This document shows, piece after piece, positions 1 through 9,313 of a stretch of DNA of 64,000 nucleotides. Numbering within the stretch: the first letter of the stretch is position 1; every line of letters starts with the position of its first letter. This stretch comes from Betaproteobacteria bacterium (lineage in GTDB: Bacteria; Pseudomonadota; Gammaproteobacteria; Burkholderiales; Thiobacillaceae). The stretch covers positions 1 to 64,000 of the forward strand of contig JAIFKV010000012.1 in NCBI GenBank assembly GCA_020049415.1, read 5' to 3'. The notes under the pieces are model-generated. The model did not search any database, was not told the DNA's origin, and saw only the letters and a program-made list of their open reading frames with translations. Position numbers and translations under genes: made by a program.

Positions 1-1066
1 GGCGTCTGTTCCAACCTGCTCTCCGACGACCTTGCCGCCGACTTCGTCGCCAAGCTGAAGACCGATTACGCCGAGGTGCGCGAACGCCATCTGGCGCAGC
101 GCGGCGAAAGCAAGCGGGTGACACTGGCCGAAGCGCGCGCCAACAAGTTCAAGACCGACTGGACGACGCTGGTTCCGCCGGTTCCCAAACAACTCGGCGT
201 GCAGACCTTCAAAGCCTACGACCTCGCCGATCTCGCCGAAGTCATCGACTGGACACCGTTCTTCCAGTCCTGGGAACTGCATGGCCGCTACCCGAAGATT
301 CTGCAGGACGAAGTGGTCGGTGAAGAGGCGCGCAAATTGTTCGCCGACGCGCAGGCCATGCTGAAACTGATGATCGCGGAGAACTGGATCGAGGCCCGCG
401 CGGTGGTCGGGCTGTTCCCAGCCAACACGGTGAATGACGACGACATCGAGATTTATGACGCAGACGGCAAGGTGCAAATGACCGCACACCAGTTACGCCA
501 GCAGATGGCGAAACCCGCCGGCCAGCCGAACTGGTGTCTGGCCGACTTTATTGCTCCCAAACCCGTCGCGCCAAAAGAAACCGGCGTGCAGGATTACATT
601 GGCGCCTTCGTGGTCACCACCGGCATCAACGAAGCTGCACGTAGCAAAGCCTTTGAAGCCGCGCACGACGATTACAGCGCCATCCTGTTCAAGTCGCTCT
701 GCGACCGACTGGCGGAGGCTTTCGCCGAACGCATGCATCAGCGGGTGCGCAAGGAGTTCTGGGGCTACGCGCCCGATGAATCCTTGAGCACAACCGATCT
801 GATCGACGAAAAATATCGTGGCATCCGCCCCGCGCCGGGCTATCCGGCCTGCCCGGAACACAGCGAGAAAGGCGCGCTGTTCGACCTGCTCGATGCCGGT
901 TTCCGGCTTCTATTTCAGCCATCCGGATGCACGCTATTTCGCGGTCGCCAAGATCGACCGCGATCAGGTCGCCGACTACGCCCGCCGCAAGGGCTGGGGA
1001 GAAGACGCCAACAGTATCGCGAAGGCCGAAAAATGGCTGGCGCCTAACCTGGGATATAACGCTTGA
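1..1066 (+). pseudogene. metH: Methionine synthase MetH, C-terminal activation domain (partial, frameshifted)
   Basis: This is the C-terminal part of cobalamin-dependent methionine synthase, which methylates homocysteine from methyltetrahydrofolate. The visible part is the end of the cobalamin module and the AdoMet-binding reactivation domain. The gene starts left of the window and is open from base 1. The AdoMet-binding signature [10 protein letters not shown] lies near base 830. Reading continues to LFDLLDA at about 897, and homology then resumes one frame over with [14 protein letters not shown] from about 899. It ends with the typical [10 protein letters not shown] and a TGA at 1064-1066. 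Compared with the E. coli protein as I remember it, about 19 residues including the TESFAM segment are missing, which is a net loss of roughly 56 nt. Either reactivation is lost in this gene or the read/assembly has a local error. Identity is firm; the pseudogene status is not. Confidence 0.85.
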
Positions 1067-1099
1067 CTGAAAATTCTTGAACCATCGGGGAAATCGAGC

Positions 1100-2686
1100 A
1101 TGAACGCATCTGCTCCACTCGGCGCTCTGCCGGTTGCGACGATACCGTTGGGTGGGAGCATGGGAACGCTCGGCGTGACTTTTTGCCCGGGCAAAAGCGA
1201 CCCGATGTCTTCCGATGGACTCTGGTCACGCGATCTGCCGGCCGACCTTGGCAGTCTGCGCGCCTGGGGCGCGCAAGCTTTGGTTACGCTGCTGGAAGAT
1301 GACGAATTTTCGCTGCTGCATGTACCCAAACTGGGTGAAATGGCGGAATCCGCCGGGCTCGATTGGTACCACCTGCCGATCCCGGACATGGCCGCGCCGG
1401 GTTGGCAGTTCGAGCGTCGCTGGGTGTACGCCGGCGTTCGTTTACGGCGACTGTTGCGGCGAGGCGGCAAGGTCGTCATTCATTGCCGAGTCGGGCTTGG
1501 GCGTTCAGGCACCATCGCGGCGCGTTTGATGGTGGAACTCGGCTTGTTGCCTGCCGAGGCAATCAGACAGGTGCGAAGAGCACGTCCGGGCGCCATACAG
1601 ACCAGCGAACAAGAGCGCCACGTCGAGTTGGTCCGGCGCATCCCCTCGGCGCAAGACGATGCCGTCGCCATGCGATTGGCCTGCATGTTTGGCGGTGCGT
1701 TGGGAGATGGTTTCGGTTATGCGGTCGAGTTCGACAGCCTGGCCCACATCCACAAAATGCATGGCCCCACTGGATTGCGTGAACCCAGTTTTCATCAGGG
1801 TGAACTTGTTGTTTCTGACGACACCCAGATGAGCCTGTTTACGCTGGAAGGATTGACTCGAGCTCTTCTGGCTGGCGAAGGAGACGATCAGGCACTGGTC
1901 GAGCAGGTGCGGTTGTCATATCTTGATTGGCTGGCAACACAAGATCCGCGCGCGTCCGGCAGCAATGTCTCCTCCCGACTTCTCAAACATGCCTCGATGC
2001 ATGTTCAGCGCGCCCCGGGCAAGACGTGTATGAGCGCTTGCCAGCAGGGGGCTGGTGGCACACCGGAAAAACCGATCAACAACAGCAAAGGCTGCGGCGG
2101 CGCTATGCGCACCAGCGCGGTCGGGCTGATCCCCAATATCACCCCGGCGCGCGCATTTCGTCTTGGCGCACGCATTGCCGCCTTGACACACGGCCATCCG
2201 AGCGGGTACTTGTCGGCAGGATTGATGGCTGCCGCTGTGCGCGGCTTGCTTGAAGACCTGCCACTGTATGCCGCCTTGAACCAGGCCGCCGAGCTGGCGC
2301 GTGCCTGGAGCGGACACGAAGAAGTGCTCAATCTGTTGCAGACTTCGCTGCAATTGGCGGTGCGTCCCTTCAATGGCACCTTGCCGGAACAGCTTGGGCA
2401 AGGCTGGGTTGGCGAGCAGGCCTTGGCTATCGCTGTTTACGCCGCTAGTCGCAGTCAGTCGTTACGAGAAGTATTGGTGATTGCAGCCAATCACAGCGGT
2501 GATTCCGACTCCACCGCCAGTCTGGCGGGGCAGTTGTTTGGCGCGCAACATGGGCTGGAATCGTTACCGCATGCATGGATACGTCGGCTGGATATATTTG
2601 ACGCCAGCCTCGATCTGGCGGACTGGAGTCTGCCGATCTGGATACGTCCGCCGCGCGTTATTGTTGAGCATGGAAAACCCGCATGA
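1100..2686 (+). CDS. Fusion of a dual-specificity-type phosphatase and an ADP-ribosylglycohydrolase
   Basis: This 528-residue protein has two catalytic domains. Residues about 1-175 resemble CDKN3/dual-specificity phosphatases, with the CX5R loop HCRVGLGRSG (His128, Cys129, Arg135). Residues about 190-520 are an ADP-ribosylglycohydrolase (DraG/ARH) domain. It starts at GGALGDGFG (198-206), has the metal-binding DDTQ (Asp240, Asp241), a conserved NNSKGCGGAMR stretch and a second metal motif HSGDSDSTAS (465-474, Asp468 and Asp470). All expected catalytic residues are present. ATG 1100 is the most upstream start; ATG 1160 is an alternative. The stop overlaps the next start by 4 bp (ATGA), so the HIT-like partner is probably co-translated. 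The likely job is removal of ADP-ribose from a macromolecule plus dephosphorylation of a related product. The substrate is unknown. Confidence 0.85.
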   Translation: MNASAPLGALPVATIPLGGSMGTLGVTFCPGKSDPMSSDGLWSRDLPADLGSLRAWGAQALVTLLEDDEFSLLHVPKLGEMAESAGLDWYHLPIPDMAAPGWQFERRWVYAGVRLRRLLRRGGKVVIHCRVGLGRSGTIAARLMVELGLLPAEAIRQVRRARPGAIQTSEQERHVELVRRIPSAQDDAVAMRLACMFGGALGDGFGYAVEFDSLAHIHKMHGPTGLREPSFHQGELVVSDDTQMSLFTLEGLTRALLAGEGDDQALVEQVRLSYLDWLATQDPRASGSNVSSRLLKHASMHVQRAPGKTCMSACQQGAGGTPEKPINNSKGCGGAMRTSAVGLIPNITPARAFRLGARIAALTHGHPSGYLSAGLMAAAVRGLLEDLPLYAALNQAAELARAWSGHEEVLNLLQTSLQLAVRPFNGTLPEQLGQGWVGEQALAIAVYAASRSQSLREVLVIAANHSGDSDSTASLAGQLFGAQHGLESLPHAWIRRLDIFDASLDLADWSLPIWIRPPRVIVEHGKPA

Positions 2687-3723
2687 GCAAACTCAGTTCC
2701 CCCTTTGCCAGCCTGGAACATTTGCGGAATCGGTTCGTTGACGGACTCGACGCCATGCTGGTCCAACATGATGGGCTTGGCGTTTTCATCCTGGTACTGG
2801 CGAATGCCGCGCAAGACCCGGTGTTATGGAGGCCTCTGCGAGATAATTTGTTGGCGCGGTATCGCCGTCACGCAACGCAGATCAAAACCGCATTGCGTCA
2901 TGGCGCCAAGCTGGATGCGCCGGAAGACGACTTGATGGTTTTCCTGAAATTGATGGCGCTGGAACTGGCGCCGGACGAATTTGAACAACTGCAAGTCAGT
3001 CCGAGTCGTCAACTCGGCCCGTGGGAGGTGCAATTCAATCCATTGCGCGCATTGCGACCCGCACGCATGAGCCAGGCCCGGGCAGAGGGCAGCATGCGAC
3101 CGTTCGACGCGACTGGCTTCCACTTCAATAAACCGTTTCTAGCCAAGGAAGTACTCTGGCAAGGGGAACTGGCTGGAAAAACGGCACGGCTTCTGTACAA
3201 CAAATTTCCCTTCGCGCCTTTGCATGGTTTGTTGGCGCCCGAGCCCGAGCAACAATTACCCCAATTCTTGACGCCGGAAATGCATGCCTGGGCTTGGAAT
3301 ATCGCGCGTCAGTCGGGTGCGCTCATTCCAGGTTTTGGGCTCGCATACAACAGCTTTGGCGCCTATGCGTCAGTCAATCATTTGCACTTTCAGACTTTCG
3401 TGCGCGCCCGGCCGTTACCTGTACAAAGCCTCAAGGCATCGCAATACCCGTTGCCGGTACAACATTATGACGACCCGCGGCTTGCCTGGTTTCGGATTGA
3501 TGAATTGCATCAACTCGGCACGCCTTACAACCTGATTTATGCCACGAGCGGACTGAACCTGATCGCGCGCGCGCGTCAGGGTGAAGTGCCCTTGCAAGAA
3601 TGGAGTCCAGGCTTCGCCTGGAGCGAGTTGGCGGGTGCGTTCAGCGTCGGCAGTCACGCCGACTACAACCTTCTGACTCAATCGGCGATAGAACAGGCGT
3701 TGGCGGAATTACGCGTGAATTGA
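2683..3723 (+). CDS. HIT-superfamily nucleotidyltransferase/phosphorylase-like protein
   Basis: This 346-residue soluble protein carries the HIT-type catalytic motif NHLHFQTF at residues 232-239 (His233, His235, Gln237). It follows a central block with NKFPFAPLHGLL and FGAYASVNH. The length and the HxHxQ motif fit the GalT/Ap4A phosphorylase/GDP-hexose phosphorylase branch of the superfamily rather than small HIT hydrolases. Such enzymes transfer a nucleotidyl group through a histidine intermediate. The 4-bp overlap with the phosphatase/ADP-ribosylglycohydrolase fusion argues for a shared pathway, plausibly on an ADP-ribose-like or dinucleotide substrate. That role is inference; I do not recognise a named family member. 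Confidence 0.6.
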   Translation: MSKLSSPFASLEHLRNRFVDGLDAMLVQHDGLGVFILVLANAAQDPVLWRPLRDNLLARYRRHATQIKTALRHGAKLDAPEDDLMVFLKLMALELAPDEFEQLQVSPSRQLGPWEVQFNPLRALRPARMSQARAEGSMRPFDATGFHFNKPFLAKEVLWQGELAGKTARLLYNKFPFAPLHGLLAPEPEQQLPQFLTPEMHAWAWNIARQSGALIPGFGLAYNSFGAYASVNHLHFQTFVRARPLPVQSLKASQYPLPVQHYDDPRLAWFRIDELHQLGTPYNLIYATSGLNLIARARQGEVPLQEWSPGFAWSELAGAFSVGSHADYNLLTQSAIEQALAELRVN

Positions 3724-3742
3724 CAAAATCACCGGCTTTCGT

Positions 3743-3773
3743 CCCGAGCCGACAACCTTCCCTCTGGCTCGGG
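3743..3773. other. Hairpin between convergent genes
   Basis: An 8-bp perfect stem (cccgagcc / ggctcggg) with a 15-nt loop lies between the end of the HIT-like gene and the end of hemB. Neither side has a T-tract, so intrinsic termination is doubtful. Confidence 0.3.
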
Positions 3774-3796
3774 CTGCCACGTTGAGTTGAATCAGA

Positions 3797-4810
<1,014 letters not shown>

Positions 4811-4851
4811 TCACTCCTGAGACAAAAATACCCATCTTGCTGGGATTGCCC

Positions 4852-4942
4852 AGGAGCTTGTCGGACTTTGGTCTTCGATAGCGAAAATTGACCCCGGCGC
4901 GGTCGATTTGCAGCCGACGATTCCAAAGTCCGACAGGCTCCT
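4852..4942. repeat. MITE-like element with 20-bp terminal inverted repeats
   Basis: The left arm 4852-4871 (aggagcttgtcggactttgg) and the right arm 4923-4942 are inverted copies with 19 of 20 matches, enclosing 51 bp without an ORF. The total of 91 bp, sharp inverted ends and intergenic position upstream of hemB fit a non-autonomous transposon derivative or a REP-type palindrome. The arm sequence resembles terminal repeats of some transposons in related bacteria, but I cannot name the family. No clear target-site duplication is visible. Confidence 0.65.
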
Positions 4943-5020
4943 AGGGAACAAATGAACTTGATGCAGTCTCAATGTTGGCAGATGAATCGCTTCATCTCCC
5001 GCTTCCCCTCCCTGAGCGGG

Positions 5021-5043
5021 TGTCTTGGCGCAATACCAAGACA
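5021..5043 (+). other. Hairpin followed by a short T run, next to the engB stop
   Basis: An 8-bp perfect stem (tgtcttgg / ccaagaca) with a 7-nt loop is followed by gtttt on the plus strand. It sits 3 bp past the engB stop, but the T run is on the strand opposite to engB transcription. It may be a 3'-end stabiliser or block read-through from the plus side. Confidence 0.35.
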
Positions 5044-5046
5044 GTT

Positions 5047-5682
5047 TTACCCGGCTTGAGGTTGACTAACACTCTCCTCTTGGGCCGGGTTCTTTTTGCT
5101 GATTCCGAGCCAGTCTCGCACCACGCCTTCGGCTTGATCAACGCCAACTTTTTTCGGGCTGGAGAACAATTGCGCGCTGGCTTTCATGCCCATTTTCTTC
5201 AGTTCGGCGTTGACCGCAAGCAAAGTTTGCGCTGCGGCACCGCGTGAAAGCTTGTCGCTCTTGGATAGCAAAACATGCACCGGGCGACCCGATGGACGAA
5301 ACCACTCCAACAATGAACGATCGAGTTCGGTGAACGGATGGCGAATGTCCATGATGATGACCAAGCCGGCCAACTGGGCGCGATCCGCGAGATATCCGCC
5401 GATCAGCGCCTGCCAGACGTGCTTCTGCGCTTTCGGCGCGCGCGCATATCCGTAACCGGGCAAGTCGACCAGGAAGCGACCTTCATCGACGCGAAAAAAA
5501 TTAAGGTGTTGCGTGCGTCCTGGCATCTTGCTGACGAACGCAAGCCGCTTGTGATTGCAAAGCGTATTGATAGCACTCGACTTGCCGGCATTGGAGCGGC
5601 CGGCGAAGGCCACTTCGGCCAGGCTGTCAGCGGGAAGTTCGCGGATTTGCGCGACGGTAATATGGAAGGCGGCGTTGAGCAC
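5047..5682 (-). CDS. engB: Ribosome biogenesis GTP-binding protein EngB (YsxC/YihA)
   Basis: This is an essential GTPase that assists large ribosomal subunit assembly. At 211 residues it has the usual size. The P-loop GRSNAGKSS is at 28-36, the G3 motif DLPGYGYA starts at residue 73, and the G4 motif SKSDK is at 140-144. The N-terminus (FHITVAQIRELP) is typical for the family. The start is GTG at 5682, with no strong ribosome site. It is divergent from the cytochrome c4 gene, an arrangement common in betaproteobacteria. The 104-bp gap between them must hold both promoters. Confidence 0.96.
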   Translation of the reverse strand: MLNAAFHITVAQIRELPADSLAEVAFAGRSNAGKSSAINTLCNHKRLAFVSKMPGRTQHLNFFRVDEGRFLVDLPGYGYARAPKAQKHVWQALIGGYLADRAQLAGLVIIMDIRHPFTELDRSLLEWFRPSGRPVHVLLSKSDKLSRGAAAQTLLAVNAELKKMGMKASAQLFSSPKKVGVDQAEGVVRDWLGISKKNPAQEESVSQPQAG

Positions 5683-5786
5683 GGGAGGGCCACCAATTTA
5701 AAGGCTGGCACTATAACAAATGGGCCGCTAAAATGCCGCGATTCCATTGCTGTTATTGCTGTTTTTGCGGATTAAGGAGTGTTTAG

Positions 5787-6410
5787 ATGAAATCTTTCGC
5801 GCTATTGACGGGCCTGCTGTTTGCGGCCACAACTTGGGCCAACCCCGCCCCGACCCCCGCCGCCAAGGGAGATGCCGCCAAGGCGCAAAGCATTGTTAAT
5901 GGGGTGTGTGGCGCTTGTCACAGCACTGATGGCAACAGTACATCGCCGGCATACCCCTCTCTGGCCGGGCAACATCCGGAATACATTGCCAAACAATTAC
6001 GTGAATTCAAGTTGGGTGTGCGCAAAAACGCCATCATGGCGCCTAACGTCACCACCCTATCCGATAGCGACATGTTGAATCTGGCTGCTTATTTCAGTGC
6101 TCAACAGCCGAAGCCGCGTTTGGCCAAGGATGCCGCACTGGTTGCTGAAGGTCAGAAGATTTTCAAGGGTGGCAATGCCGGTAGCGGCGTTCCCGCTTGT
6201 GCGTCTTGCCATGGCCCGGCTGGCGCCGGTATACCGGTGCAATTCCCGCGCCTGGCTGGTCAACACGCCAAATATGTAGAGTCTCAACTAAAGAACTTCC
6301 GAAGCGGAGACCGCGCCAATGACGGCGGCAAGATGATGCAGGTCATTGCCCGCAAGATGACCGATCAGGAAATGAAAGCAGTGGCCGAATACATCAACGG
6401 TTTGCGCTAA
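5787..6410 (+). CDS. Diheme cytochrome c4
   Basis: This is a periplasmic electron carrier with two class-I cytochrome domains, thought to feed terminal oxidases. Residues 1-18 form a Sec signal peptide ending near TTWA. Haem sites are CGACH (41-45) and CASCH (138-142), and each domain has a distal methionine region (NAIMAPN and KMMQVIA). The length of 207 residues matches the family. The ribosome site AAGGAG lies just upstream of the ATG. It is a single-gene transcript closed by a strong terminator at 6422-6460. Confidence 0.95.
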   Translation: MKSFALLTGLLFAATTWANPAPTPAAKGDAAKAQSIVNGVCGACHSTDGNSTSPAYPSLAGQHPEYIAKQLREFKLGVRKNAIMAPNVTTLSDSDMLNLAAYFSAQQPKPRLAKDAALVAEGQKIFKGGNAGSGVPACASCHGPAGAGIPVQFPRLAGQHAKYVESQLKNFRSGDRANDGGKMMQVIARKMTDQEMKAVAEYINGLR

Positions 6411-6421
6411 TACTTACGTTC

Positions 6422-6460
6422 AAATGCAAACGGCCCGCCTGTAGCGGGCCGTTTGCATTT
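6422..6460 (+). terminator. Strong intrinsic terminator after cytochrome c4
   Basis: A perfect 17-bp stem (6422-6438 with 6444-6460) has a GC-rich core cggcccgc, a 5-nt loop and an A/T-rich base, so it could work in both directions. It begins 11 bp after the cytochrome c4 stop and ends 20 bp before the rep start. Confidence 0.9.
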
Positions 6461-6480
6461 CTAGCTGGTAAAAACTGCTT

Positions 6481-8466
6481 ATGCTTTCCGGCCTCAACCC
6501 GCAGCAGCGAGACGCTGTGAAATACCTGGATGGTCCGTTACTCGTCCTGGCGGGCGCCGGTTCAGGAAAGACTCGGGTCATCACCCGGAAAATTGCGTAT
6601 CTCGCTACCGAGTGCGGCATTGATGCACGCCATATCGCCGCCATCACCTTCACCAACAAAGCTGCGCGCGAAATGCGTGAACGCGTTGCCGAATTACTCC
6701 CCGGGAAGCAGGGCAAGGGATTGACGGTTTCCACCTTTCACTCGTTGGGCCTGCAAATTCTGCGTCACGAGGCGAAACGCCTGGGCTACAAACCCCGCTT
6801 CTCTGTACTGGATGCGGCCGATGCGCAGCAAATTCTGGCCGATATTCTAAAAACATCGGACAAAGCCACTTTGCGTCAGGCCGCCAGTGTCGTGTCCAAT
6901 TGGAAAAATGCATTGCTGACGCCGCAGGCCGCGCTATTGGCTGTGGCGGATGAAGCCGAGCATCAGTTTGCACAGGCTTACCAAGCCTATCAAGATACTT
7001 TGCGCGCCTATCAGGCGATGGATTTTGACGACCTGATTCGGCTTCCCGTCGAATTGTTTCGCGGCCATCCGGAGGCGCTGCAAACGTGGCAAGGTCGTTT
7101 GCGCTACTTGCTGGTCGACGAGTATCAGGACACCAACGGCGCGCAGTACGAACTGATGAAATTACTCGCGGGAGCGTCGGGCCGCTTTACCGCCGTGGGC
7201 GACGATGACCAGGCGATTTACGCCTGGCGTGGCGCGGATGTGGAAAATTTGCGTCGGTTAACACTGGATTACCCCAGTTTGAAGATCATCCCACTCACGC
7301 AGAATTACCGTTCCAGTCAGCGCATTCTGCGCGCAGCCAACAGCGTCATTCAAAACAACCCGCGTCTGCATGAAAAGAATTTGTGGAGCGACCATGGTTT
7401 GGGCGATCTCATTGAACTGCTGCAATGCCGGGATGATCGGCATGAGGCGGAAACAGTCGCGCTGCGTATCTCGGCGCACAAATTCGAGTGCCGCACCGAG
7501 TTTGCCGACTACGCCATACTTTATCGTGGCAACCATCAAGCACGCTTGTTCGAGGAGGCCTTGCGCGAGGCGAAAATTCCTTACCAACTCTCCGGCGGCC
7601 AGTCTTTTTTCGACAAAGCGGAGATCAAGGACCTCATCTCCTATCTACGTCTGATTTCAAATCAGGATGACGACCCCGCTTTCATCCGCGCGGTGACTAC
7701 CCCGCGTCGCGGCATTGGCGCCGGCACGCTGGAGAAACTCGGCGATCACGCCGGGCAGCGCCATATCAGCTTGTTCGAAGCGGCTTTTGAAGCCGGCTTC
7801 CAGGAGCATCTGCCTGATCGCCAACTGGAACCCCTGATGGCGTTTTGCAGCTTTATCAATCGCATTGCCGATCGCGCCGAAAAGGAAGCCGCCGGCAGTT
7901 TGCTGGAAGAGCTTCTGACCGCCATTCAATATGAGGAATGGCTATATGAAGTGGAAGACGACCGTGCCGCCAAGGCAAAATGGTTGAATGTGCGCGATTT
8001 CGTCGGTTGGCTGACCAAGAAAGGCGCGGAAGATGGCAAAACGCTGATCGAACTGACGCAGACTGTAACGCTCATGAACCTGCTGGAAGGACGAGATAAC
8101 GAAGCGGTTGATGCGGTTCGACTGTCCACCCTGCATGCTGCCAAGGGACTTGAATTCCCGCACGTCTATTTAGTCGGCGTGGAAGAGGAAATATTACCCC
8201 ACCGGGAATGCCTGGAAGGTTCGCGACTGGAAGAGGAACGTCGGTTAATGTATGTTGGTATCACACGGGCCAGGCGCGGTCTGACCATAAGTTGGTGTGC
8301 AAAGCGCAAACGCGGCGGGGAAATTTCGCCTTGCGCGCCCTCCAGATTCCTCGATGAAATTGATCAAAACGAGGTCAAGCGTTCAGGCGCTGCCGCAGAA
8401 AGCAGCGAAGCAAAAGAAGACGGCAGGCGCCGGCTTTCCGCTTTGAAGGCCATGCTGACCAAATAA
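6481..8466 (+). CDS. rep: ATP-dependent DNA helicase Rep
   Basis: This superfamily 1A 3'-5' helicase supports replication fork progress and restart. At 661 residues it is close to E. coli Rep (673). It begins LNPQQRDAV (Q-motif). Walker A is GAGSGKT (25-31), Walker B is DEYQDTN (213-219), followed by GDDDQAIYAWRGA (motif III) and QNYRSS (motif IV). Near the C-terminus come STLHAAKGLEF (motif V) and YVGITRAR (motif VI). The phrase TTPRRGIGAGTLEKLG favours Rep over UvrD or PcrA. No ribosome site is evident upstream of ATG 6481. The gene ends at a bidirectional terminator shared with the convergent cytochrome c5 gene. Confidence 0.93.
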   Translation: MLSGLNPQQRDAVKYLDGPLLVLAGAGSGKTRVITRKIAYLATECGIDARHIAAITFTNKAAREMRERVAELLPGKQGKGLTVSTFHSLGLQILRHEAKRLGYKPRFSVLDAADAQQILADILKTSDKATLRQAASVVSNWKNALLTPQAALLAVADEAEHQFAQAYQAYQDTLRAYQAMDFDDLIRLPVELFRGHPEALQTWQGRLRYLLVDEYQDTNGAQYELMKLLAGASGRFTAVGDDDQAIYAWRGADVENLRRLTLDYPSLKIIPLTQNYRSSQRILRAANSVIQNNPRLHEKNLWSDHGLGDLIELLQCRDDRHEAETVALRISAHKFECRTEFADYAILYRGNHQARLFEEALREAKIPYQLSGGQSFFDKAEIKDLISYLRLISNQDDDPAFIRAVTTPRRGIGAGTLEKLGDHAGQRHISLFEAAFEAGFQEHLPDRQLEPLMAFCSFINRIADRAEKEAAGSLLEELLTAIQYEEWLYEVEDDRAAKAKWLNVRDFVGWLTKKGAEDGKTLIELTQTVTLMNLLEGRDNEAVDAVRLSTLHAAKGLEFPHVYLVGVEEEILPHRECLEGSRLEEERRLMYVGITRARRGLTISWCAKRKRGGEISPCAPSRFLDEIDQNEVKRSGAAAESSEAKEDGRRRLSALKAMLTK

Positions 8467-8497
8467 AAAACGCGGCTCAAGGCCGCGTTTTTTATTT
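8461..8497. terminator. Bidirectional intrinsic terminator, rep / cytochrome c5
   Basis: A perfect 16-bp stem (8461-8476 with 8482-8497) has a gcggc core, a 5-nt loop and A/T tracts on both sides. It overlaps the rep stop codon and lies 15 bp past the convergent cytochrome stop, so it serves both genes. Confidence 0.92.
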
Positions 8498-8512
8498 GTG
8501 ACTTGCAGCAGA

Positions 8513-9313
8513 TTATTTGGCTTTAGCCTTGCTCGTGGCGTCGATTGCCGATTTCGCCTGAGCCACCATGTAATCGACAGCCAGTTTGGTATCGGCATCG
8601 GAAAGCTTCAAGTTGCCACCCTTGGCCGGGCCGCCAAAGCTGCCGTTAATCGCAGCATTGTACAAATAATCCTTGCCTTCCTTGATCAGCGGAATCCATG
8701 CCTGAGCATCAGTCAGTTTTTGTGCACCTGTCATGCCGGTGTTATGACAAGAAGCGCAGTTCTCGGCATATACCGATTGACCGTTTGCCAGCTCTGCTGC
8801 GGTAGGTTCAACTTCCTTCTTCAGCATCGCCTGGAAATTCGCGCCAGCAGCATTGGTCATATAAACCACGCCGCGTGCAACTTCCATATCGGTCAGATCA
8901 GGGTCTCCGCCGCGTGCAGGCATCTTGTTGAAGCCTTTGATTGCGTGGCTCAGCAAGGTTTCATAGCCTTGCCCAATACGCTTGCCCCAATCGGCATTTT
9001 CTTTGAATTTGGGCGAACCCAAAGCGCCCGAAGCATGACAGCCCGCGCAGACTTCGTTGTAAACCTGCTCACCAGTGAACTCCACTTTGACAACATTAGG
9101 GTCTACAGCAAGCGACACACCAAAAGGCTGAACTCGCTCACGTACCGCCTTGTCGGCAAGTGGGGCAGGGTCGGTCTCACCCATTTTGTACTGGATACCA
9201 AGGAACAGCATCACGATCATGAAAATCGTAAGGCCGGGGGCAAACAAACCGCCAAGTGTTGCTGCAATAAAATCCTTGGGTGTCGTTTTTGTCATTTGCT
9301 GGTGATCGGACAT
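8513..9313 (-). CDS. Membrane-anchored diheme cytochrome c (cytochrome c5 family)
   Basis: This 266-residue protein has one N-terminal membrane segment (about 18-41), which anchors two periplasmic cytochrome domains. Haem sites are CAGCH (89-93) and CASCH (186-190). Each is followed by a methionine-containing loop (KMPARGG) or its counterpart GGPAKGG, where the second axial methionine is not obvious. The C-terminus is lysine/alanine rich. It is likely an electron carrier between a quinol oxidising complex and oxidases or reductases. Met1 or Met7 could be the start; neither has a clear ribosome site. It is transcribed as a single gene, divergent from the tRNA. Confidence 0.9.
   Translation of the reverse strand: MSDHQQMTKTTPKDFIAATLGGLFAPGLTIFMIVMLFLGIQYKMGETDPAPLADKAVRERVQPFGVSLAVDPNVVKVEFTGEQVYNEVCAGCHASGALGSPKFKENADWGKRIGQGYETLLSHAIKGFNKMPARGGDPDLTDMEVARGVVYMTNAAGANFQAMLKKEVEPTAAELANGQSVYAENCASCHNTGMTGAQKLTDAQAWIPLIKEGKDYLYNAAINGSFGGPAKGGNLKLSDADTKLAVDYMVAQAKSAIDATSKAKAK

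Follow-up and report, generated by a model that had tools for sequence, protein, structure and literature searches.

A rhodanese-phosphatase/ADP-ribosylglycohydrolase fusion gene beside a candidate adenylylsulfate:phosphate adenylyltransferase gene in a betaproteobacterium

Two overlapping genes, one for a phosphatase-glycohydrolase fusion and the other for a HIT-type enzyme, raise the question of whether their products form a single pathway of ADP-ribose processing or are two different enzymes that share an operon. The genes lie in a stretch of 64,000 nucleotides (the window; contig JAIFKV010000012.1 of assembly GCA_020049415.1, positions 1 to 64,000, forward strand), whose first base is the start of the contig, and the host is a Thiobacillaceae/Hydrogenophilales-type betaproteobacterium, with MAGs such as Hydrogenophilales bacterium 28-61-23 among its nearest named records. 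An earlier reading of the letters without database searches (the sequence-only reading) had proposed an ADP-ribose processing pair. According to our analysis, the fusion and the HIT protein probably do not form a pair for ADP-ribose recycling; the best explanation, to which we give a probability of about 0.6, is that one operon holds a candidate adenylylsulfate:phosphate adenylyltransferase (APAT) and a captured fusion of rhodanese-phosphatase (R-P) and ADP-ribosylglycohydrolase (ARG) domains, kept mainly for its phosphatase. The two genes and their motifs are located as follows.

1100..2686, + strand: fusion gene, 528 amino acids, R-P (DSP-PTPase) domain and then ARG domain (PF22785, PF03747)
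1481..1504, + strand: phosphatase signature HCRVGLGR (Cys129, Arg135), with Asp96 upstream
1814..1825, + strand: presumed ARG metal motif 1, SDDT, residues 239-242
2498..2515, + strand: presumed ARG metal motif 2, GDSDST, residues 467-472
2683..3723, + strand: HIT gene, predicted HIT/GalT-superfamily nucleotidyl phosphorylase of 346 amino acids, candidate APAT (ADP sulfurylase), from its AlphaFold model, Apa2 match and aprA co-occurrence
3196..3213, + strand: YNKFPF motif, counterpart of Apa2 LLNKFP in the alignments
3379..3393, + strand: HLHFQ (HxHxQ) motif, H233-Q237, invariant in 30/30 aligned family members

Both open reading frames, the domains of the fusion and the HxHxQ motif were verified, the two frames overlapping by 4 bp (ATGA, 2683-2686), as the sequence-only reading had it. 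The conservation of this arrangement was analyzed in a set of 61 genomes, comprising the window's own and 60 relatives. The full fusion was found in 13 of them (the window's and 12 relatives), and the HIT gene follows it in all 13, supporting that the pairing is not due to chance. The spacing is a 4-bp overlap in eight cases and a gap of 3, 21, 27, 29 or 66 bp in the other five (with script-chosen starts), and the two genes would presumably be transcribed together. On the HIT protein tree the fusion label needs two changes, corresponding to a well-supported clade of 12 genomes and to G030. Within the clade, at 53-80% identity to the window protein, the adjacency persists while the genes beyond HIT have changed, and the G030 fusion occupies an identical slot at 46% identity. 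The co-occurrence holds in one direction only, in such a way that the HIT gene is present in 30 of the 61 genomes and the full fusion is absent from 17 of these 30. The window's own assembly is 84% complete and those of several relatives are also incomplete, so absences in this set may be misses.

The HIT-type enzyme was recognized correctly by its motif in the sequence-only reading, but it is a full-length Apa2-like protein and not a small HIT protein. The window protein has no Pfam match up to E 1 and no NCBIfam match. We take HLHFQ to be the nucleotidyl-histidine motif, and Y172-N-K174 is invariant in the 30 aligned sequences, whose profile finds yeast Apa2 with an E value of 0.0011. The AlphaFold model (pLDDT 93.8) also retrieved yeast Apa2 by Foldseek (E 1.4e-8), and its comparison with the Apa2 structure (4i5t) gave a Z of 18.5 and an rmsd of 3.0 over 241 residues, at 17% identity, with the next entry at Z 8.4. 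Fold matches beyond Apa2 (spliceosomal proteins, GalT, Hint) do not exceed this last value, so that they indicate the superfamily at most. The HIT motifs may also resemble those of plant VTC2. Matches to ATP_transf (PF09830) amount to five in the 61 genomes, and three of them are the HIT family itself: the relative in G003 scores 24.9 bits against a curated cut-off of 23.5, and those in G014 and G018 stay below it. The relative in L030 matches PF19327 with 14.8 bits, below the cut-off of 23.1. Going by the model, we take the HIT protein to be an Apa2-like nucleotidyl phosphorylase.

Where does such a protein occur? In a sample of 398 genomes across the phylum, the HIT gene was detected in the window's genome and in one other. 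Scanning 84,980 species gave 246 confirmed matches, of which 80 loci were examined. Thiobacillus and Parasulfuritortus are among the named carriers, as are gammaproteobacteria, for instance Thiodiazotropha; these three genera are sulfur oxidisers. No match was found on plasmids, and none of 74 candidate stretches in viral contigs was confirmed. In the set of 61 genomes, aprA, full-length or fragmentary, is present in 28 of the 30 with HIT and in 11 of the 31 without it (Fisher p 2.4e-6, kinship ignored), the fragments of G000, G005, G018 and G025 being scored as present. With full-length aprA only, the figures are 25/30 and 10/31 (p 7.8e-5); relatives are non-independent samples, and these statistics carry no phylogenetic correction. 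In 15 further HIT genomes, hand-picked from the 80 loci, aprA scored above the family cut-off in 14, and in the window's genome sat and an aprA fragment lie together on contig C109. The sulfide-dehydrogenase gene fccB is directly upstream of HIT in 5 of the 80 loci (by Pfam in L125 and by clustering in the others, in an upstream-gene table built from greedy ORF calls). Twelve of the 15 hand-picked genomes yielded no canonical ATP_transf protein, and in five of these 12 the sole ATP_transf match is the HIT gene, which matches weakly (E 0.016-0.07) and was assigned from contig coordinates.

The final step of sulfite oxidation via adenylylsulfate (APS) is assigned, in passages of two papers (PMC8232776, PMC8551704), to ATP sulfurylase or to a phosphate-using APAT. 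Because of its Apa2-like fold, the links with aprA and fccB and the lack of a canonical ATP_transf protein in 12/15 carriers, the HIT protein is best read as a putative APAT (APS + phosphate -> ADP + sulfate). Its active-site His would take AMP from APS, with release of sulfate, and phosphate would then take the AMP from the His to give ADP. In this way the enzyme would conserve energy in the final step of sulfite oxidation, following AprAB and alongside ATP sulfurylase.

What would the fusion do next to such an enzyme? Its N-terminal part matches the Tc-R-P phosphatase family (PF22785, residues 50-146, E 3.9e-10) and its C-terminal part ADP_ribosyl_GH (PF03747, residues 194-491, E 5.1e-61). 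We assume that Cys129 and Arg135 are the catalytic residues of a CX5R phosphatase with Asp96 as general acid, and that SDDT and GDSDST bind the metals of the ARG domain. The three phosphatase residues are retained in 13/13 fusions. By contrast, SDD of the first ARG motif is kept in 12/13, with SDE in G015 (which has DxDA in the second motif), and both Asp of the second motif (DxD) in 9/13, one or both being gone in G014, G020, G010 and G030. With the phosphatase site intact in 13/13 and ARG Asp residues lost in 4/13, the phosphatase domain appears, from sequence comparison, to be under stronger constraint than the glycohydrolase domain. The fusion would have been captured into the position between metH and the APAT-type gene, and retained chiefly for the phosphatase. 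Its simplest role would be to remove phosphate or, where the ARG site is intact, an ADP-ribosyl group from a cell protein or metabolite.

Several observations weigh against this explanation. The ARG metal site is complete in the window fusion, in which an ADP-ribose activity may persist. ATP sulfurylase (PF01747) is encoded in 29/30 HIT genomes, compared with 12/31 others, so that an APAT would offer a second, dispensable way out beside it. A separate canonical ATP_transf protein is present in 3/15 HIT genomes, and also in two aprA-positive genomes without HIT (G001, G046), so that some genomes have APAT candidates other than the HIT family. Also, aprA is absent from 2/30 HIT genomes (G002 and G009, incomplete assemblies) and from 1/15 of the hand-picked ones, and is carried by 11 HIT-negative genomes. 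Finally, no apr-HIT operon was found in the 61 genomes, aprA being on another contig or, in G024, 1.6 Mb away.

Regarding the origin of the fusion, Iyer et al. 2022 (PMC9503650, section 3.8) reported ARG domains coupled to rhodanese-phosphatases, with WYL or Nudix regulators, chaperones and nucleases as frequent companions, and predicted that such systems counter viral ADP-ribosylation. Regulators stand beside ARG/R-P in over 42% of the cases reported there (PMC9503650), and are therefore not obligatory. With ARG and R-P in one polypeptide, the window fusion is, as judged from its domains, an ARG/R-P enzyme of this already published class, a predicted defence component; the view that no described pathway has exactly these parts fails for the fusion half. 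No WYL or Nudix regulator, chaperone or effector/nuclease was found among the six neighbours scanned in 1-9313, which are metH, hemB, a ribosome-binding GTPase, two cytochrome c proteins and an ordinary UvrD/Rep-type helicase, this helicase being four genes further on from the pair. The order is the 3' part of metH, fusion gene, HIT gene and convergent hemB.

1..1066, + strand: 3' part of metH (B12-dependent methionine synthase, activation domain; Met_synt_B12, E 2.7e-97)
3797..4804, - strand: hemB (delta-aminolevulinic acid dehydratase), convergent with the operon (PF00490, E 2.9e-136)

Compared with a close homologue, metH shows a frame change and lacks around 11 residues between about 899 and 909 (the 890-910 region): in a tblastn search with the MetH of a relative, residues 879-1182 aligned at 1-909 (frame 1) and residues 1194-1243 at 899-1063 (frame 2). 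This interruption is either a true lesion or an assembly error.

Full-length relatives of the fusion, with 37-40% identity, were found on three alphaproteobacterial plasmids, all with complete ARG metal motifs. Those of Leisingera and Fuscovulum adjoin genes for an AAA ATPase, WYL, PD-(D/E)XK and UvrD proteins, whereas that of Cereibacter does not. In Roseomonas the ARG and R-P domains are encoded by adjacent separate genes. Neither window protein was matched by PADLOC, and neither was the Leisingera plasmid fusion, so this search is uninformative on defence. In 399 Burkholderiales genomes, the R-P-only or ARG-only relatives had no HIT gene in the 20 regions fetched, one of which (G495) contains both domains in split frames. 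In L093:5460-6524 and L221:6881-7903, a gene for a protein of around 350 residues overlaps a stand-alone R-P phosphatase gene. The 354-residue protein of L093 had no Pfam or PADLOC match; proteins of this type could correspond to the ARPP of Iyer 2022.

Among the 80 loci (L095-L174), the fusion is upstream of HIT in 11, counting L107, which the upstream-gene table scores as metH but which is taken to be the G015 locus with its fusion; the table itself gives 10. The metH-HIT slot also has other occupants. A Fic/DOC gene fills it in L132:6861-8210, L142:7631-8980, L160:7625-8995, L167:7613-8977 and L082:6164-7522, with the HPFxDGNGR motif in the first four, where it was checked; in L160 and L167 this gene shares 4 bp with HIT, and in L132 the two are 790 bp apart. 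Other genes fill the slot in L161. In 26 of the 80 loci, the gene directly upstream of HIT encodes a DUF302 protein with a signal-like start, for instance L140:8173-8910, often at a gap near 90 bp (by Pfam in L140 and by clustering in the others). A second and more distant HIT copy (57%) was detected in G013:C41:5145-6167, beside acetyl-CoA-synthetase-like and GlnE-like genes (named by eye), and could be assembly contamination.

How does the best explanation compare with its rivals? In a single ADP-ribose pathway, ARG would free ADP-ribose, the R-P domain would trim phosphate and HIT would phosphorolyse ADP-ribose to ADP and ribose-5-phosphate, a reaction catalogued as EC 2.7.7.35. The tight arrangement of all 13 fusions followed by HIT, the intact ARG site of the window protein and the use of adenosine nucleotides by Apa2-like enzymes (partly general knowledge) agree with it, and processing of released ADP-ribose by the ARG-coupled phosphatase is what the published class predicts (PMC9503650). 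That much of the ADP-ribose proposal survives within the fusion, and HIT as partner in one pathway is not supported: its distribution tracks aprA, 17/30 HIT genomes are without the full fusion, and the ARG metal Asp residues are lost in 4/13. The co-occurrence check proposed in the sequence-only reading, made with KptA and Macro, also failed. KptA (PF01885) was found in 0/37 family genomes searched and 1/61 overall, so ADP-ribose-1''-phosphate from RNA repair is without a visible source and a dedicated route for it is unlikely; Macro was found in 1/13 fusion genomes. It holds that no ADP-ribosyltransferase is adjacent, but the window's genome encodes the dinitrogenase-reductase ADP-ribosyltransferase DraT on another contig (G000:C108:3341-4099, 331 bits), and a further ARG homologue elsewhere. 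DraT is not associated with the fusion, being present in 7/12 fusion genomes searched (the window's own included) and in 7/13 fusion-negative family genomes searched. Altogether we regard the single ADP-ribose pathway as very unlikely. It is also unlikely, if somewhat less so, that HIT controls dinucleotide alarmones as an Ap4A phosphorylase and the fusion is unrelated to it. The nearest solved structure is indeed the Ap4A phosphorylase Apa2, and the ATP sulfurylase in 29/30 HIT genomes makes an APAT dispensable; a general alarmone enzyme would, however, not explain a gene found in 2/398 genomes of the phylum and concentrated in those with aprA.

A quite possible alternative, though short of an even chance, is that the slot between metH and HIT is permissive and the fusion a defence gene that passes through it as cargo, with no tie to HIT, which may be an APAT here as well, in such a way that this view overlaps with the best explanation. 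The Fic/DOC genes of the five loci listed above and the other genes of L161 speak for a permissive slot, and the presence of the fusion class in defence-like plasmid loci for a cargo gene. A passing gene is harder to reconcile with an adjacency held throughout the 12-genome clade (53-80% identity) despite the changed downstream genes, and seen again in G030. The pairing may thus reflect regulatory domestication or merely a permissive slot. Were there a functional tie between the two proteins, a fusion of phage-defence type could have been domesticated to regulate sulfur-based energy conservation. Its phosphatase domain, still intact where the ARG decays, would then control how APAT or the enzymes of sulfite oxidation are modified, with a Fic-type enzyme as its substitute in sister lineages, a doubtful proposal at present.

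Under the best explanation, the candidate APAT and the captured fusion are both enzymes of known kinds, and the novelty lies in their arrangement, a defence-type enzyme in stable operonic linkage with what looks like a gene of energy metabolism. Among the open-licence papers listed in the literature searches, none describes the fusion-HIT pairing in its title or opening abstract lines, although the pairing may have been published elsewhere. Should the HIT family be APAT, it would offer a sequence handle on an enzyme of sulfite oxidation that, in the window, goes unmatched by Pfam and NCBIfam models. It would also mean that a defence-type enzyme has long been held beside an energy-metabolism gene while one of its active sites decays in part of the clade, making the pair a testable case of domestication.

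The APAT of Thiobacillus denitrificans was reportedly presented by Bruser, Selmer and Dahl in 2000 as a member of 'a new family of nucleotidyltransferases', to go by the title. It is presumably a nucleotidyltransferase with a catalytic His, as the HIT family would be, and by description the two have bacterial group and physiology in common. The HIT family has, according to its model, the superfamily fold with the His motif, and it occurs in organisms with AprAB (28/30 and 14/15 carriers). A gene 'apt' carrying the APAT name is listed in SMDB, in a passage of PMC10199032. Yeast Apa2 (4i5t) resembles the HIT protein in the predicted fold over 241 residues, the NKFP and HxHxQ-type motifs and an ATP_transf-like C-terminal part; the differences are the low identity, the lack of a Pfam match in the window protein and a HIT distribution that is bacterial and tied to sulfur oxidation. 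With DraG, the dinitrogenase-reductase ADP-ribosyl hydrolase, the fusion shares the ARG family domain and metal motifs, but it scores 54.9 bits against an equivalog cut-off of 337.05 for TIGR02662, and DraT and the other ARG homologue lie elsewhere in the genome. The closest resemblance in domain make-up is to the ARG/R-P systems of Iyer 2022, with both domains in one polypeptide and no adjacent ADP-ribosyltransferase. Whereas those systems often have WYL or Nudix regulators, chaperones and nucleases around them, which the six scanned neighbours do not include, the window fusion is set between metH and an APAT-type gene, and its ARG domain decays in part of the clade.

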